A stretch of DNA of 64,000 bases from Microbacterium caowuchunii (GTDB taxonomy: Bacteria; Actinomycetota; Actinomycetes; Actinomycetales; Microbacteriaceae), in NCBI RefSeq assembly GCF_008727755.1, contig NZ_CP044231.1, forward strand, positions 806,001-870,000, written 5' to 3'. Shown here piece by piece: positions 1,571 to 63,741 of the stretch. Position 1 is the first letter of the stretch. Each line of letters begins with the position of its first letter. The position numbers and the translations under genes were made by a program. The notes under the pieces are model-generated. The model was not told where the DNA came from, did not search any database, and saw only the letters and a list, made by a program, of their open reading frames with translations.

Positions 1571-4122
1571 GGTGCGCAGGTGTCTCTGGCGTAGTCCACC
1601 GTGATCTGCGCGCCCTTGTTGGCGGCGGTTCCGGCGGCGGGACTCGTGCCCAGCACCTTCGTCTCGTTCGGCTTCAGGTCCTTGTCCTCCGTGCAGGCGC
1701 CCAGCCCCACGTTGGTGAACCCTGCGGCGGCGAGTTGCTGCTGCGCGTTCTGCACGGTGCCACTCACGGACGGGATCGTGCCGCCCTGGCCGTTGCTGGG
1801 GTTGATCGTGATGGTCGATCCGCCGGCGGCCTGCCCGGACGGGTTCTGCGCGGCCACGACGTCGGTGGCGGCATCGGAATCGACCGGCTCGCCCACAGTG
1901 ACGGTGAATCCGGCGTCCTCGAGTCGGGCCTGCGCCTCCTCGACGTTCATGCCGACGACGTTCGGGACATCGCGCAGCACGGTCTTGGTGAGGTTGCCTG
2001 CCGGTGCAGGGAAGGCGTTGCCGCCGTACAGGTCGTTCGCCGCGCCCTGGATGTTCCGGGCGATGGCGTAGCGCATGTTCGAGAGCTGGTACCCGTTCGC
2101 GGACCGGTTGAACAAGCTGACCTCGCCGGTCGAATTGCCGACCCAGACGGCGGTCGCGACGGCCGTGCTGGACTCGATCATCCAGGACTGCCATCCCTCG
2201 TGCGTTCCGGTCTTGCCGATCACGGGGACGCCGTCGTACGGGTTCGCCCCGGCACCGGTTCCGCCGTTCATCACGCCGCGGAGGGCGTAGGCGGCCGTGG
2301 CCGCGACCTCGGGGGTGAGGACCTGCTCGCAGGTGCGCTCCGGCTTGGGAAGCTCGTTGCCGTTCGCATCGGTCACGCGGTCGATGACCTGCGGCTGGCA
2401 GTAGATGCCGTTGTTGGCGACCGTGGCGTATGCACCGGCCATCGCCATCGGCGACACGTTGTCGGATCCGATGACCTCGTTGGCGACAGTCATCGGGATC
2501 GGCTGACCATTGCCGAGCGTCACGCCCATCTTGCTGGCCACCTTGCCGATGTCGCAGAGGTCCAGCTGCTCGGCCATGGCGAGGTATCCGGAGTTCAGGG
2601 ACGCGGAGGTGAACTGCATCGGGGTGCCGGTGTAGCCGCCGACGTTCCCGAAGTTGCCGATCCGGTCACCGCCGTAGTTCACCCAGTCGCCGGAGCACGA
2701 GTTGGTCATGCGCGGGAAGACACGGTTGCGGCCGTTGAGCACCTCGTTGACGGAGCGGCCCTGCTCGAGCCAGTCGACGAGAGTGAAGATCTTGAACGTG
2801 GATCCGGCGTTGAACCCGCCCGACTTCCCGAACTTCTGGTCGCCCGCGTACACGAGGGCCGAGTAGTTGGGGTCCGACGCGAGGGAGGCGTCCTCACTGA
2901 ACTGGGTGTTCTGCGCGATGGAGAGCACGCGTCCCGTGGACGCCTCGATGTTCACCGCGGAGGCGCCGAAGGACATGCCCTCCATGGAGCTGGGTGCGAT
3001 GTCGGCCATCGTGGCGGCTGCGGCGTCCTGGAGGCGCCAGTCCAGCGTGGTGTACACCTTGAGGCCGCCGCGGCGCAGCGCGAGCTGCCGGTCCTCGCTC
3101 GTCTCGCCGAAGGCCGGGTCGTTCTTGATGACCTCGACCACGTACTGGCAGAAGTACGGGGCGATGGTGCCGGCGCACCCCTGCGCCGGGTTCGTGATGT
3201 TGGGGGTGATCGGCTCGGCGACGGCGGCGTCGTGCTGCTCCTGCGTGATCTTCCCGTCATCCAGCATGCGGTTCAGCACATACGTCTGCCGCTTCTTGGT
3301 GAGCGCGTAGCCGTCCGCGGCCCCGTTGACCTCGTTGTTCGGCTGATCGATGCGGTACGTGTTGGGATTCTGGACGATGCCGGCCAGCACGGCGGCCTGA
3401 CTCAGGCTGAGGTCGCTCGCGGGGACGCCGAAGTAGTGGCGCGCCGCGGCGTCGATGCCGTAGGTGATGCCGCCGAAGTTGGCGATGTTGAGGTAGCCCA
3501 GCAGGATGTCGTTCTTCGAGTACTCCTGCTCGAGCTGGACGGCGTAGCGCATCTCCTGGAGCTTGCGCTCGATGCCCTCCGTGCCGCTGGAGTTGGTGGC
3601 CTCGATGAAGCAGGCCTGCTTCTCCTCTTCGCCGACGGCGTCCCACTCGCACTTCTGGATGAGGATGTTCTTCACGTACTGCTGGCTGATCGACGACCCG
3701 CCCTGCGTGCTCGCGCCGCCCTGCAGGTTCGACAGCACGGCACGGGTCGTGCCGATCAGGTCGACGCCGCCGTGCTCGTAGTAGCGCGGGTCCTCGCTGG
3801 AGAGGATGGCGTCGTACATGACCGTCGCGACCTGGTCGAAGCCGACCGGTGAGCGGTTCTGGTCGTAGAACGACGCCATCTCGACGTACTCGCCGGTGTT
3901 CGGGTCGTTGACCAGGAGGGTGGTCGGCTCCATCAGATCCGAGATCTCGAGATAGCTCGGCATGTTGTCGAACATCGTGATCGCGCTCGAGGCTGCGGCT
4001 CCGGTCACGGCGATCGCCGGGGTCACGGTCGCGGTGATGAGAACACCGGCCACCGCGCTCAGACCGACGAGTCCGGCGAAGCCGGAGAGCACGCCGGTGG
4101 CTGTGCGTTTGGTATCGGGCAT
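1567..4122 (-). CDS. Class A penicillin-binding protein with two PASTA domains
   Basis: An 851-residue bifunctional peptidoglycan synthase (PonA-like). It has one N-terminal transmembrane anchor (about 12-45), then a GT51 glycosyltransferase domain with the catalytic EDPRYYEHGG motif (Glu110) and GGSSISQQ. The transpeptidase domain shows STFK (Ser441, Lys444), SLN (Ser508) and KTG (Lys637). Two PASTA domains follow at about 717-782 and 783-848. It polymerises lipid II and cross-links stem peptides on the outer membrane face. A TACGAT hexamer ends exactly seven bases before the ATG and no Shine-Dalgarno is evident, so the message is probably leaderless. The stop overlaps the metallophosphoesterase start. 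Confidence 0.96.
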   Translation of the reverse strand: MPDTKRTATGVLSGFAGLVGLSAVAGVLITATVTPAIAVTGAAASSAITMFDNMPSYLEISDLMEPTTLLVNDPNTGEYVEMASFYDQNRSPVGFDQVATVMYDAILSSEDPRYYEHGGVDLIGTTRAVLSNLQGGASTQGGSSISQQYVKNILIQKCEWDAVGEEEKQACFIEATNSSGTEGIERKLQEMRYAVQLEQEYSKNDILLGYLNIANFGGITYGIDAAARHYFGVPASDLSLSQAAVLAGIVQNPNTYRIDQPNNEVNGAADGYALTKKRQTYVLNRMLDDGKITQEQHDAAVAEPITPNITNPAQGCAGTIAPYFCQYVVEVIKNDPAFGETSEDRQLALRRGGLKVYTTLDWRLQDAAAATMADIAPSSMEGMSFGASAVNIEASTGRVLSIAQNTQFSEDASLASDPNYSALVYAGDQKFGKSGGFNAGSTFKIFTLVDWLEQGRSVNEVLNGRNRVFPRMTNSCSGDWVNYGGDRIGNFGNVGGYTGTPMQFTSASLNSGYLAMAEQLDLCDIGKVASKMGVTLGNGQPIPMTVANEVIGSDNVSPMAMAGAYATVANNGIYCQPQVIDRVTDANGNELPKPERTCEQVLTPEVAATAAYALRGVMNGGTGAGANPYDGVPVIGKTGTHEGWQSWMIESSTAVATAVWVGNSTGEVSLFNRSANGYQLSNMRYAIARNIQGAANDLYGGNAFPAPAGNLTKTVLRDVPNVVGMNVEEAQARLEDAGFTVTVGEPVDSDAATDVVAAQNPSGQAAGGSTITINPSNGQGGTIPSVSGTVQNAQQQLAAAGFTNVGLGACTEDKDLKPNETKVLGTSPAAGTAANKGAQITVDYARDTCAP

Positions 4123-4921: not shown

Positions 4922-4938
4922 GCCGCGCACGGACGACG

Positions 4939-4984
4939 AAGCCGAGGTCAGGACGCATCCTCCGGGATGTCCTGACCTCGGCTT
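4939..4984. terminator. Bidirectional terminator between the RidA gene and acs
   Basis: A perfect 16-bp stem (4939-4954 with 4969-4984) with a 14-base loop that can itself pair ATCC/GGAT. The stem begins with AA and ends with TT, so it can act in both directions. It sits between two convergent genes. Confidence 0.85.
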
Positions 4985-4999
4985 TACCGTCGGATGCGG

Positions 5000-37440: not shown

Positions 37441-38325
37441 ATGGCCTGGCGTTTCGCGCTCCTGATCGAGCCCGCAGCATCCGACGAGTCCCGTGCGGAT
37501 TTCGCCGACACGCTCACTCCCATCGATCCGTCCGCTCCGGCGCTGAGTATCGGCGAGCTGAGCACGCAGCGTGGCGACGGGATCTTCGAGTCGATCGGTG
37601 TCGTGGACGCGCACCCACAGGAGGTGCAGGCGCATCTGGAGCGGCTCGCGCACTCCGCGCGCGTGTGCGACCTGCCCGCGCCGAATCTCGCGCAGTGGGC
37701 GCAGGCCGTGTCGGTGGCCGCGGCGCAGTGCCCGCCGGGGGAGTGCGTGATCAAGCTCATCCTCAGCCGCGGGGTCGAGCACGGACCCGCACCGACCGCG
37801 TGGGTGACGGTCGCCTCGGCCGCCGACAACACGGCTGCCCGCGAGAACGGCGTGCGCGTGGTCGTCCTGGACCGCGGGTTCGACAGCGGCGCGCCGGCAC
37901 GGGCGCCGTGGCTCCTGCTCGGAGCGAAGACCCTCTCGTATGCGCCGAACATGGCCGCGCTTCGCGAGGCCCGCCGTCGCGGGGCGGATGACGCCGTCTT
38001 CGTCTCGAGCGACGGCGTCCTCCTCGAAGGACCGACGTCGTCCCTCGTCCTGCGGCAGGGCGACCGCTTCGTCACCCCCGCGCCGGGTGCCGGCATCCTG
38101 CACGGGACGACCCAGCTGAGTCTGTTCGCCCACCTCGAGGATCGCGGTTTCGAGACCGCGTACGAGACGCTGCCGACGGCGGCGCTGTTCGAGGCGGATG
38201 CGGCATGGCTCGTCTCCAGCGTCAGGCTCGCGGCCGGCATCACCGCCGTCGACGACGCGCCGCTGCCGTACGACGCCGCCTTCACGCGGGAGCTGAACGA
38301 CTACCTGCTCTCGCCCAGGTCCTGA
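37441..38325 (+). CDS. pabC: Aminotransferase class IV, probable 4-amino-4-deoxychorismate lyase
   Basis: A 294-residue fold-type IV PLP enzyme. The Schiff-base lysine is in LLGAKTLSYAPNM, and the phosphate/carboxylate region is LLEGPTSSLVL. The start GDGIFESIGV matches PabC/IlvE-type N-termini. PabC makes 4-aminobenzoate for folate; D-amino-acid or branched-chain aminotransferases share the fold, so the substrate is inferred from length and overall pattern. Leaderless start. Confidence 0.8.
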   Translation: MAWRFALLIEPAASDESRADFADTLTPIDPSAPALSIGELSTQRGDGIFESIGVVDAHPQEVQAHLERLAHSARVCDLPAPNLAQWAQAVSVAAAQCPPGECVIKLILSRGVEHGPAPTAWVTVASAADNTAARENGVRVVVLDRGFDSGAPARAPWLLLGAKTLSYAPNMAALREARRRGADDAVFVSSDGVLLEGPTSSLVLRQGDRFVTPAPGAGILHGTTQLSLFAHLEDRGFETAYETLPTAALFEADAAWLVSSVRLAAGITAVDDAPLPYDAAFTRELNDYLLSPRS

Positions 38326-38364
38326 CCCGTCCGCATCCGCGCTTCGTGGATCGGGTCGCGCCAT

Positions 38365-38436
38365 CCCGTTCGGTTCAGTGCACCCCGTCCCGTTCGGTCC
38401 CGTGCACAACGGCCCGTTCGGTCCCGTGCACAACGG
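38365..38436. repeat. Three 24-bp tandem repeats
   Basis: Units at 38365-38388, 38389-38412 and 38413-38436, each starting CCCGTTCGGT; the last two are identical and end in GCACAACGG. That end is also the left arm of the 82-bp element beginning at 38428, so the tandem array and the element merge. Confidence 0.85.
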
Positions 38437-38509
38437 CGGGGATCTCCCGCGCCACGCCGGTCCGGGATGCTGTGGCACGGGGTGTCGGTCATGATCTCCG
38501 CCGTTGTGC
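38428..38509 (+). repeat. 82-bp inverted-repeat element, copy 1
   Basis: Ends GCACAACGGCGGGGATC and GATCTCCGCCGTTGTGC are near-perfect inverted repeats. Next to the right end is GGGGTGTCGGTCAT. The centre has TCCGGGATG. Same length and orientation as the copies at 39138 and 40294. Confidence 0.85.
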
Positions 38510-38596
38510 GCCCGTGAATCCGCGCCGCGCCGCGCCGCACCGCGCCCAGCGATCGTAGCCACCGCGCCCACCGCCCGCGTCCGCCGGTCCGCAGCT

Positions 38597-39097
38597 TCAC
38601 ACGGTCATGCTCAAGACGATGCGGCGTGAACGGCCCGCCGTGCGATCGTCCTCGACGCGCTGCATCCCGATCTTGGTGGCGACGCGCTCAGATGCCCGAT
38701 TCTCCGGGTGGATGATGGCGATCAGCTCCCGCACGTCGAGTTCCTCGGCGACGAGGTCGCGGCATGCCGCAGCCGCCTCTGTCGCGATGCCCCGCCCCTG
38801 CCATTCCGGGACGACGTGGTACCCCACTTCGAGCCGGTGGAACCCGTTGACGTCCTGCCAGGTGAGGCCGCAATCCCCGATGAAGGCGCCCGTGTGCGTC
38901 TCGATGATCCAGAGTCCGTACCCGTGCTCGGAGTAGTTGCGCTCGTTCCATGCGATCCACGCAGCTGCTTCTTCGCGGGTCTTGGGCGCGGGGTAGTAAT
39001 GCATGACGTCCGGGTCGCCGAGGAGACGAGCCATCGCGTCCAGGTCGGACGGCCCCATCCGGCGGAAGCGGAGTCTGGCGGTATCCCGGGGAAGCAC
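38597..39097 (-). CDS. GNAT-family N-acetyltransferase (RimJ/RimL type)
   Basis: A 166-residue acetyltransferase. The chain begins LPRDTARLRFRRMGPSDLDA, then YGLWIIETHTGAFIGDCGLT, VGYHVVPEWQGRGIATEAA (the acetyl-CoA pyrophosphate loop, Q-G-R-G-I-A) and IHPENRASERVATKIGM. RimJ/RimL relatives acetylate protein N-termini, antibiotics or small amines; the acceptor is unknown. I chose GTG 39097 because TATCTT (39109-39104) ends exactly seven bases before it; a longer start has no homology and would overlap the 82-bp element. Confidence 0.9.
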   Translation of the reverse strand: MLPRDTARLRFRRMGPSDLDAMARLLGDPDVMHYYPAPKTREEAAAWIAWNERNYSEHGYGLWIIETHTGAFIGDCGLTWQDVNGFHRLEVGYHVVPEWQGRGIATEAAAACRDLVAEELDVRELIAIIHPENRASERVATKIGMQRVEDDRTAGRSRRIVLSMTV

Positions 39098-39103
39098 CTC
39101 AGC

Positions 39104-39109
39104 AAGATA
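39104..39109 (-). promoter_or_regulatory. -10 hexamer of the GNAT gene, leaderless
   Basis: TATCTT on the minus strand, with the same seven-base distance to GTG 39097 as seen at eight other genes. Confidence 0.5.
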
Positions 39110-39137
39110 TCGGACGGCCGCGCGCGCCACCTGTGAC

Positions 39138-39219
39138 GCACAACTGCGGAGACCGCCAGTGCCCTCCCGCTTCCGGATGGAGGTGCGCGGGGTGTCGCTC
39201 ATGATCTCCGCCGTTGTGC
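39138..39219 (+). repeat. 82-bp inverted-repeat element, copy 2
   Basis: Left end GCACAACTGCGGAGAC, right end GATCTCCGCCGTTGTGC, with GGGGTGTCGCTCAT before the right arm and TTCCGGATGG in the middle. It lies upstream of the GNAT gene. Confidence 0.85.
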
Positions 39220-39301
39220 GCCGGTGCCGGGCATGTCACCGGCCCCGCGCCGGTCGTGCGGCGGGCGTGCGGCGGGCGCCGTCCCGACCCCGGGGCGACG
39301 A

Positions 39302-40141
39302 TCAGCGGTGGTGCCCGGCGTGGACCGCGCCGAGGATCGCGCGTTCGACCAGGTCCCAGTCGTGCACGATCATCGCGTAGTCGAACCTCAGGGTGACGTA
39401 GCCCCAGGCGGCGGCGTTGGCATCCCGGACGAGATCCTTGTGACGCAGGGGCGCGGATGCGTGATTCAGCCCGCCATCGGCCTCCACGAGCAGCCGATCG
39501 CCGATGAGCAGGTCGACGATCCCGACGGACGGGATCCGGGCCTGGGTCCTCACCTGGAGCCCATGATCGCGCAGCCGCCAGCGCAGCAGCGACTCGATTC
39601 CGCTGTCGGCATCCGTCCGGGCGAAGGCGATCGCCGTCCGTCCCGCCTCGTTCGTATTGCAGCGCAGCCAGGTGAGATCGGCCGAACTGAGCATGCCCTG
39701 TCGAAGTGCCGACTCGAGCGAGACGAAGAAGTGCTCGGTGCCGCGGCACATCAGAAGCTGACGCAGCAGGCGCGCGACGGATGGGATGTCGAATCGATCG
39801 CCGCTCGCGGCGTCCCAGTGCGCGATGCAGGCGCACCCGGGCACCCCCGCCGTGGACGACGGATGCTGCCGATGCGCCCCCGGCAGCATCCACACGTGCA
39901 GGTCCGGGGCGTCATCGAGCACCCACACGCCGCGGTGGCGCAGCCCGGAGACGCAGGCGAGCGACCCGCCGTGGGTCGCCGCGGCGCGCACGTCGACGCA
40001 CGTGCCGCTCACCGCGTACACACCCCGGCGGAGTCGGATGAGGCTTCCGATGTCGAGCTGGGACTCCAGCTGGGAGCGGGACAACCCGCCGGCCCGCAGC
40101 TGCGCATACGTCTGGATCACCGGTCCCGTCGTCGCGCACAT
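39302..40141 (-). CDS. AbiEi-like N-terminal domain plus DUF559 endonuclease-like domain
   Basis: A 279-residue protein. The N-terminal ~60 residues (LRAGGLSRSQLESQLDIGSL, then IRLRRGVYAV) are the winged-helix domain found in AbiEi type IV antitoxins. The C-terminal ~110 residues match DUF559, a very-short-patch-repair/PD-(D/E)XK fold: VDLLIGDRLLVEADGG, then RDANAAAWGYVTLRFDY. Such proteins are common in actinobacteria, and no toxin partner is adjacent, so an abortive-infection role is not shown. It is flanked by copies 2 and 3 of the 82-bp element. Confidence 0.85.
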   Translation of the reverse strand: MCATTGPVIQTYAQLRAGGLSRSQLESQLDIGSLIRLRRGVYAVSGTCVDVRAAATHGGSLACVSGLRHRGVWVLDDAPDLHVWMLPGAHRQHPSSTAGVPGCACIAHWDAASGDRFDIPSVARLLRQLLMCRGTEHFFVSLESALRQGMLSSADLTWLRCNTNEAGRTAIAFARTDADSGIESLLRWRLRDHGLQVRTQARIPSVGIVDLLIGDRLLVEADGGLNHASAPLRHKDLVRDANAAAWGYVTLRFDYAMIVHDWDLVERAILGAVHAGHHR

Positions 40142-40293
40142 GTCTCCAGGCTGGCCGGCACCGCATCCCGTCGCCGTGCCGTGGCCGAACCCGTGAACAG
40201 ATGGCGCGGGTCACCGCCTGGGGAGGAAGCATCCCCCCTGCGCGGCGTCCGGGGTGGGTCCCGGGGTCCCGGGAACCGTGCCGCCGAATCCGC

Positions 40294-40375
40294 GCACAGT
40301 GGCGGAGATGGGTGGCGACACGCCGTGTCCGGATGCGGGTGGCCGGGGTGTCGGTCGGGATCTGTGCCGTTGTGC
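40294..40375 (+). repeat. 82-bp inverted-repeat element, copy 3
   Basis: Left end GCACAGTGGCGGAGAT, right end GATCTGTGCCGTTGTGC, more diverged, with GGGGTGTCGGTC before the right arm and TGTCCGGATGC in the middle. It lies between the DUF559 gene and pstB. Confidence 0.8.
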
Positions 40376-40380
40376 CGGGG

Positions 40381-40437
40381 TGGGCCAGCCCGGGCCAGCC
40401 CGGGCCAGCCCGGCGCCCGAGGCCGGCGCCCGAGGCG
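40381..40437. repeat. Short tandem repeats near the pstB 3' end
   Basis: Three 10-bp units (C/T)GGGCCAGCC (40381-40410) are followed by two ~13-bp units GGCGCCCGAGGCC. These palindromic, GC-rich units may help terminate the pst message, whose last gene ends at 40456. Confidence 0.75.
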
Positions 40438-40455
40438 CCAACCCCCGCGGCGAGC

Positions 40456-41235
40456 TCAGCCGAAGCGGCCGGAGACGTAGTCCTCGGTGGCCTGAACGGA
40501 GGGGGTGGTGAAGATGGTCGAGGTGTTGTCGTACTCGATGAGCTTGCCCGGCTTGCCGGTGCCGGCGATGTTGAAGAAGGCCGTCTTGTCCGAGACGCGG
40601 CTGGCCTGCTGCATGTTGTGCGTCACGATCACGATCGTGTACTCGCTCTTCAGCTCGTCGATCAGCTCCTCGATCGCATAGGTCGAGATCGGGTCGAGCG
40701 CCGAACACGGCTCGTCCATGAGGAGGACGTCGGGGGAGACGGCGATGGCCCGGGCGATGCACAGGCGCTGCTGCTGGCCGCCGGAGAGTCCCGAGCCGGG
40801 CTTCTCGAGCCGGTCCTTGACCTCGTTCCAGAGGTTCGCCCCGCGCAGCGACGTCTCGACCAGGGCGTCGGCGTCCGACTTCGAGATGCGTTTGTTGTTG
40901 AGCTTCACCCCGGCCAGGACGTTCTCACGGATCGACATCGTCGGGAAGGGGTTCGGCCGCTGGAAGACCATGCCGATCTGGCGGCGCACCAGCACGGGGT
41001 CGATGCCCGGTCCGTACAGGTCGTCGCCGTCGAGCAGCACCTCGCCCTCGACGCGGGCGCCCGGGATGACCTCGTGCATGCGGTTGAGCGTGCGCAGGAA
41101 GGTGGACTTGCCGCATCCGGACGGCCCGATGAACGCGGTGACGCTGCGCGGCTCGATCTGCAGGGAGACGCCCTCCACGGCGAGGAAATCACCGTAGTAG
41201 ACGTTGAGGTCGTTGACTTCGATGCTCTTGGACAC
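40456..41235 (-). CDS. pstB: Phosphate ABC transporter ATP-binding protein
   Basis: A 259-residue ATPase with Walker [10 protein letters not shown], signature [16 protein letters not shown], Walker [14 protein letters not shown] and the H-loop VTHN. The text [13 protein letters not shown] and [18 protein letters not shown] are PstB hallmarks. It energises phosphate import with PstA and PstC. It is the last gene of pstSCAB; in other bacteria PstB also signals phosphate status to PhoU. Confidence 0.97.
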
Positions 41236-52466: not shown

Positions 52467-52514
52467 CGAACGAGGGCGGGACGGATGCGTCGGCATCCGT
52501 CCCGCCCTCGTTCG
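52467..52514. terminator. Bidirectional terminator gpmA/phoU
   Basis: A perfect 22-bp stem (52467-52488 with 52493-52514) with loop GTCG, between two convergent genes. Confidence 0.9.
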
Positions 52515-55359: not shown

Positions 55360-55406
55360 GTATACGAGGAAGGGGCACCCCGCCGGGGTGCCCCTTCCTC
55401 GTATAC
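55360..55406. terminator. Bidirectional terminator after regX3
   Basis: A perfect 22-bp stem (55360-55381 with 55385-55406) with a 3-base loop, between regX3 and the convergent lipoprotein gene. Confidence 0.9.
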
Positions 55407-63703: not shown

Positions 63704-63741
63704 ACGCGGCGCGGCGGATCCGAGGATCCGCCGCGCCGCGT
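63704..63741 (-). terminator. Terminator after the ABC ATPase gene
   Basis: A perfect 17-bp stem (63704-63720 with 63725-63741), loop CGAG, starting 12 bases after the ATPase stop and just before the DUF4032 start. Confidence 0.85.

Follow-up and report, generated by a model that had tools for sequence, protein, structure and literature searches.

The closest described counterpart of the locus reported here is the REP/REPIN-RAYT system, whose enzyme, the RAYT, is an IS200/IS605-like tyrosine transposase (PMC2817692, PMC3116915, PMC3733652). RAYT genes are described as flanked by two REPs with which they co-evolve, whereby the abundance of the cognate repeat follows the gene (PMC2817692). With these systems, as they are described, the present locus shares a gene flanked by its own palindromes, the co-evolution of gene and repeat, species-specific sequences and copies scattered over intergenic gaps of the tandem and convergent kind. 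It differs in the enzyme, which is a DUF559 protein (Vsr-type) here and a Y1 transposase there, in the repeat, which is 80-83 bp long with four mirrored boxes and 28 copies here whereas REPs measure 20-40 bp and carry a GTAG or CGTC tag, and in the flanking copies, which here tend to the same orientation while the REPs flanking RAYT genes are described as inverted. As the enzyme is not a Y1 transposase, the system is not a RAYT system by membership; by analogy, it is best read as one that may work like REPIN-RAYT with an unrelated enzyme.

CGTC-tagged REPs are likewise palindromic intergenic repeats without a RAYT and "apparently lack a dedicated transposase" (PMC3733652), whereas the repeats described here have a linked gene and are without the CGTC tag. 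Neither a GTAG nor a CGTC tag was found in the aligned copies, ends included, the outer flanks having been read by eye only. TIRtrons resemble the locus in that a gene is bracketed by repeats able to form families, but the genes are those of tyrosine transposases and the repeats are long inverted ones (PMC3733652). As to the protein, an N-terminal winged helix of the same type is present in the AbiEi antitoxin, which binds inverted repeats upstream of its own gene; AbiEi partners a DUF1814-type toxin (PMC7319586), whereas the protein described here ends in DUF559 and palindromes also occur downstream and at scattered sites. VsrA from Caulobacter crescentus shares the DUF559 domain, which its authors place in the PD-(D/E)XK superfamily, but is linked to cytosine methylation and DNA damage in a report whose main text is without a word beginning with palindrom (PMC12907096). 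Finally, a Vsr-type domain is named in another context for a Microbacterium testaceum protein, and the Pfam model named there matches 25 of 80 relatives of the protein described here (PMC3710099).

The window locus and its bracketed gene

The window, by which the whole analysed stretch of 64,000 nt is meant, covers bases 806001-870000 of a genome that consists of one contig of 3,262,719 bp. Three copies of an 82-bp palindrome in one shared orientation had been reported for it by the initial annotation, and a direct sequence check bore out number, length, orientation and coordinates: P1 (38428..38509, + strand) resides between pabC and a GNAT gene, P2 (39138..39219, + strand) is located 82 bp 3' of the stop codon of a DUF559 gene and P3 (40294..40375, + strand) 152 bp 5' of its start codon. 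The common ends that had been described do not hold in sequence, as the left arms vary among the copies (GCACAACGGCGGGGATC, GCACAACTGCGGAGACC and GCACAGTGGCGGAGATG) and the right arm of P3 reads GATCTGTGCCGTTGTGC. The motif GGGGTGTCGGTCAT, said to be conserved by the right arm, is matched exactly in P1 only, and the supposed directional core TCCGGATG is found in P2 and P3, P1 having TCCGGGATG instead, and lacks conservation across an alignment of 24 copies. With up to 3 mismatches allowed, the 17-bp right arm matches six times in the window (0.64 expected), and six or more matches were obtained in 0/100 shuffles.

Integron attC sites, too, are palindromes of imperfect form that stand in one orientation between genes; their end boxes follow the consensus RYYYAAC / GTTRRRY. 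The palindromes described here resemble them in being imperfect, in lying between genes and in sharing one orientation, but their ends GCACAAC / GTTGTGC break this consensus, and other species have ends of unrelated sequence. An integron was rejected as the source, the integrase model TIGR02249 exceeding its cut-off in 0/38 genomes, while weaker tyrosine-recombinase matches occur in all 38 genomes and in all 14 controls.

Further repeats were observed in the window. A 19-nt unit (CCCGTTCGGTYCMGTGCAC) is present three times with 24-bp spacing at 38365-38431 and reaches into the left end of P1, and a short tandem repeat of GGGCCAGCCC (40384-40413) immediately adjoins P3. A palindrome scan furthermore identified strong hairpins of 38-60 bp at 4932-4991, 52467-52514, 55360-55406 and 63704-63741, which look terminator-like by eye. 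At Rfam gathering cut-offs, two tRNAs only were found in the window, and no promoter pattern was found at the palindrome locus.

What the initial annotation overlooked is the DUF559 gene bracketed by two of the copies, an arrangement that proved a rule. The gene (39302..40141, - strand; identified from its ORF, Pfam matches and homologues) encodes a protein of 279 aa with a predicted AbiEi-like winged helix at the N-terminus, followed by a DUF559 Vsr-type nuclease-like domain. The latter (PF04480) scores 27.6 bits, above the cut-off of 20.6, and AbiEi_4 scores 22.5 bits at a cut-off of 25. Of 80 aligned proteins, comprising the window protein and 79 among the 120 listed of 733 homologues, 78 match DUF559 and 53 match AbiEi_4 at E 1e-3. 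The putative nuclease residues D209, E219, D221 and H226, as well as D235, R238 and D239 (numbered without the first Met), are invariant in all 80 sequences. A profile search against solved structures yielded no more than two matches, to 3hrl at E 0.068 and to an unrelated chain at E 0.44. Distant DUF559 homologues of 30-33% identity were also noticed on the Tsukamurella plasmids NZ_LR134454.1, NZ_LR134466.1 and NZ_LR134468.1.

The neighbours of the DUF559 gene are pstB and the GNAT gene. The host gene on the one side is the pstB-like ABC ATPase gene (40456..41235, - strand; named from its sequence and neighbours), which is present in 34/34 genomes searched, and its conserved neighbour on the other side is the pabC-like gene of a class IV aminotransferase (37441..38325, + strand). 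Between P2 and P1 resides the GNAT acetyltransferase ORF (38597..39202, - strand), whose true start is probably internal (39058 according to a codon-usage gene caller). The GNAT gene was found in 0/74 related loci at E 1e-15 and >45% identity and is, judged from sequence, probably a passenger or a chance neighbour.

In 13 of 21 own-genus genomes pabC lies directly beside pstB; in two others (G011, G012) the gap holds another gene, TetR-like by eye, and in six (G000, which is the genome under study, G001, G005, G014, G015 and G017) it holds a DUF559 gene. A boxed palindrome is present in five of these six occupied gaps, being degenerate in G014; an inverted repeat of another type, identified by eye, is found in the G001 gap. 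Among 74 named loci with a homologue, 50 are located at pstB/pabC and 24 elsewhere, from which it follows that the gene moves little and mostly stays while the arms change. Identity to the query is 46-61% for the DUF559 homologues and 87-97% for PstB.

A dispersed family of fixed length

A covariance model built from 24 copies was used to scan the genomes and identified 28 distinct copies in the genome under study, 27 with a length of 82 bp and one with 81 bp, whereby one further weak match (E 0.157) was left out of the count. The three copies had been taken for members of a REP-like family rather than for chance palindromes, and this view is supported by 28 copies genome-wide that are dispersed, of fixed length and intergenic; copies elsewhere, whose lack had been named as evidence against a family, do exist. 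Each copy consists of a 17-bp outer arm, 5 variable positions, a 10-bp inner box CGACACSCCG and 18 variable positions, followed by box and arm in mirrored order. The inner box, CGACACSCCG with its mirrored form CGGSGTGTCG, is conserved together with the spacing, whereas loops and inner spacers diverge in the 24-copy alignment. When the inner box was searched exactly with a free gap of 4-34 bases, 7/7 matches in the genome under study had a gap of 18; among the matches listed, gaps of 18 or 19 prevail in own-genus genomes (20 in G033, shorter in a few), G042 has 18 and G043 27-29, and the reversed control pattern matches in 1/58 genomes. All 28 copies are intergenic according to a simple codon-usage gene caller, by which 9 of the 20 occupied gaps are convergent, 11 tandem and none divergent. 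Some copies stand alone, and others form tandem groups of two to four.

Copies located behind genes and able to fold would be expected if the palindromes acted in transcripts, ending or protecting messages at gene ends. This reading accounts neither for the fixed length and the boxes nor for the link to DUF559, and 0 terminator-like sites (a GC stem followed by a T run) were found at 38300-40500. Moreover, paired changes do not keep the pairing within the genome under study: pairing is less than in shuffled copies, variant arms stand opposite standard ones, and covariation is lower than in 499/500 shuffles, for which reason an RNA covarying within this genome was rejected. Variant arms opposite standard arms, as if the half-sites were read separately, favour a duplex binding site over an RNA, and a function as terminator or RNA hairpin is considered very improbable.

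Close homologues are bracketed by matching palindromes

A search with the window protein at E<=1e-60 gave homologues in 61 of the 149 genomes of the genus. A boxed palindrome lies within 400 bp in 25 of 30 fetched homologue loci (19/23 from new genomes, 6/7 from earlier ones), and shuffling of these loci gave 1 match in 113 kb. The 74 named loci, taken from GTDB contigs and overlapping with the genomes used earlier, yielded a boxed palindrome within 400 bp of the homologue in 65 cases (2 matches in 413 kb when shuffled), with the palindrome being upstream in 57, downstream in 54 and on both sides in 46. Here, the median distance is 126 bp before the start codon and 53 bp downstream. The box is absent from 9/74 named and 5/30 fetched loci.

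Arm identity between the two sides of one locus amounts to 22.3/26 as compared to 11.4 between loci; the cognate arm is best or tied-best in only 29 of 46 loci, one arm type being common to many species. Loop identity in 33 loci is higher in the same orientation in 22, higher in the opposite orientation in 5 and tied in 6, hence bracketing copies tend to one orientation. Protein and palindrome similarity are correlated across 54 loci (r=0.346, reached in 0/2000 permutations), which in part reflects common descent. The scattered copies, in turn, are most like the bracketing pair of their own genome in G000 (26 copies, 23.2/26), G029 (16 copies, 25.4) and G021 (5 copies, 23.2); the two scattered copies of G005 score 24.0 with their own pair and 23.0 with that of G029, and in G015 one of two is most like its own pair.

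Copy number goes along with the gene: a close homologue is present in 9/12 copy-rich genomes versus 1/11 copy-free ones (Fisher p=0.002), a test with cut-offs set after the data had been seen, which omits G016, G023 and G030 (outside the homologue search) and nine own-genus genomes with 1-8 model matches, of which G006 and G028 have a close homologue. Copies are found without a homologue at 1e-60 in G001, G011 and G024, G034 has a homologue and no copies, and G007 is copy-rich, yet no palindrome was found beside its closest homologue.

The main non-mobile rival explanation is an operator model, in which the DUF559 protein would bind DNA as an AbiEi-like regulator, with the upstream palindrome for its operator and further binding sites in the scattered copies, and nothing would be mobilised. 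AbiEi antitoxins do bind inverted repeats in their own promoter (PMC7319586), the N-terminus of the DUF559 protein matches AbiEi models, and the median position of the palindrome ahead of the start codon is consistent with such a role. However, a matching copy also stands behind the stop codon in 54/74 loci, and the lack of divergent gaps among the 20 occupied ones is a poor fit for promoter control. As the growth in copy number, the scattered copies and a nuclease-type domain with invariant putative active-site residues would be left unexplained, the operator model is regarded as unlikely.

Spread across genomes and divergence of the arms

The covariance model matches in 25 of 58 genomes, 22 of them among the 35 of the own genus (own genome included) and 3 from other families. 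G042 and G043 carry the inner box, whereas the G051 match is a different hairpin without a box, and the best matches in G008 and G025 are without a box at the standard place. Most other species of the genus have retained the inner box, and their outer arms are of different sequence yet still complementary. In a set of 33 copies, all 14 outer pairs were found to have changed on both sides, and outer-arm covariation reaches 0.461 as compared to 0.146 for shuffled copies (0/500 reach the observed value) and at most 0.101 with slid partners. This set was derived from 35 listed copies of a pairing-plus-box scan, mostly one per genome and G028 twice; its 91.9% of paired positions is inflated, since the scan itself demands pairing, which does not explain the variety of complementary letters.

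Where close relatives were seen to differ in their copies, part of a copy had been lost or a tandem copy gained, without a clean insertion: at L342 half a copy remains after a deletion, at L340 one of two tandem copies has collapsed, and one further comparison revealed no palindrome difference. Of the mobility marks that the initial annotation had suggested looking for, clean empty sites of solitary copies were not found among the close relatives compared.

These data also bear on the idea that a selfish DUF559 gene uses the palindrome as its homing site, whereby a solitary copy would be cut and repair from a palindrome-gene-palindrome donor would insert the gene, with later recombination between the two direct repeats deleting it and leaving a solitary palindrome behind. 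The shared orientation of bracketing copies (22 of 33 loci), the 24/74 genes away from pstB/pabC and the very existence of solitary copies agree with this idea. Homing alone would not, however, make 26 solitary copies at new places, most genes reside at one conserved site, and an unsystematic comparison matched no solitary copy to a palindrome-gene-palindrome arrangement at the same site in another species. The homing model is considered unlikely.

DUF559 genes of other subfamilies

The bracketing extends beyond the close homologues: in other DUF559 subfamilies the genes stand between repeats of a different sequence, which again match each other. A non-random set of 79 DUF559 genes from 24 genomes (76 of the genus, 3 of G043), chosen by genome among the matches listed, was subjected to a palindrome scan that makes no use of the box. 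A palindrome (score >=17) lies within 400 bp of 53 of these genes, and the palindromes cluster in two zones, one 50-150 bp upstream and the other beginning shortly before the stop codon and reaching 100 bp downstream, few being more distant. Controls gave 1 palindrome when 349 kb of loci were shuffled, 5 in the 64-kb window and 4 in 19 pstB loci, of which 15 are genus loci without DUF559 in the gap and 4 are from other families and unchecked for DUF559. Palindromes vary between loci, and those up- and downstream of one gene match, the cognate partner being the best of its row in 24 of 27 two-sided loci. A second, palindrome-blind test identified matching repeats that bracket 55/79 genes above the 99th percentile of non-cognate pairs, with 52 genes best of their row and a few non-cognate pairs reaching 193; far flanks (0/79) and pstB genes (0/30) gave no such pair. 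Either test is positive for 65/79 genes and neither for 14, including L195 and L198 of the genome under study.

The palindrome type goes with the DUF559 subfamily. A second family of 62-65 bp with GTTGAGTGTCC arms, when both strands are counted, matches 62, 52, 45 and 38 times in G007, G009, G020 and G006, respectively, less often in six other genomes, and adjoins other DUF559 genes in G006, G007 and G020. One copy of the GTTGAGTGTCC type was observed in the genome under study outside the window (G000:C1:67132-67194). A third family is represented by L249 of G029, where 84-bp palindromes with the box GACGATCCCCCGA (1955-2039 and 3033-3117) bracket a DUF559 gene, and occurs at three further places in this genome. 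Among 32 order- and phylum-level loci, for which the ORF choice was crude, matching palindromes on both sides were found in G043 (already among the 79), G072 and G142, and one-sided ones in G039, G051, G089, G126, G148 and G183; 20 loci are without a palindrome and two have one only inside the ORF. Clusters of TGTTTCACGTGAAACA, a putative parS site, flank a small DUF559 gene in L281 of G190, and this pair was left out of the bracketing count.

The link to DUF559 in 65/74 loci, together with a palindrome type that follows the DUF559 subfamily, is difficult to reconcile with a MITE of an unrelated transposon that came to lie beside DUF559 genes by chance. Scattered and also tandem copies would suit a MITE; the divergence of loops and inner spacers with persisting boxes would not. 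Target-site duplications, suggested by the initial annotation as a further mark, were not found for the 28 copies: exact ones of 3-5 bp flank 0/28, 6 bp with one mismatch 1/28 (0.37 expected) and 7-10 bp none. With Y1_Tnp as the sole transposase model searched, no parent IS was found, and a chance association of this kind is held to be extremely improbable. The REP-associated TnpA that had likewise been suggested was not found in the own genus, Y1_Tnp (PF01797) matching in 0/35 of its genomes; a RAYT/TnpA as partner was rejected, the model matching in 2/58 genomes overall.

The proposed two-component system and its meaning

We consider it probable, on sequence evidence, that the 82-bp palindromes are the recognition sites and at the same time the non-autonomous members of a two-component repeat system, whose resident enzyme would be the AbiEi-winged-helix/DUF559 protein. 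The proposal builds on the observed bracketing, the matching arms, the two-sided changes, the scattering, the intergenic placement and the absence of a RAYT, and assigns binding, cutting and copying to the DUF559 protein. Here, the protein, probably as a dimer or a dimer of dimers, would bind the mirrored boxes of its own palindrome and, when bound, would nick or cut it. Through repair or copying, the palindrome would then reach further intergenic sites, most of them behind genes. Enzyme and arms would change jointly in each lineage, which would give rise to species-specific arms in the bracketing pair as well as in the scattered copies.

In the literature, with thin coverage of subscription papers and preprints, no report of such a DUF559-palindrome pairing was found, which points to an enzyme-repeat partnership so far undescribed; even without confirmed movement, it would be a new enzyme-repeat association. 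Neither the enzyme nor the repeat was found to have anything in common with the nearest known system. We lean towards the wider view that AbiEi-DUF559 proteins of the Actinomycetota are second, independently evolved creators and maintainers of palindrome families, a counterpart of REPIN-RAYT with a Vsr-type nuclease in place of the HUH transposase, existing in many subfamilies that would each read their own palindrome. Repeat families without a transposase may also have their missing partner in such proteins.

DUF559 is a widespread domain whose function is unknown according to Pfam, and the pairing provides a candidate DNA target that can be read beside each gene. Enzyme and substrate can hence be tested pair by pair, the arms of other species providing an inherent control of specificity. 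Should the palindromes indeed be spread by the enzyme, resident systems that make palindromes would have arisen at least twice in bacteria. The matched pairs would also form a natural collection of DNA-reading specificities.
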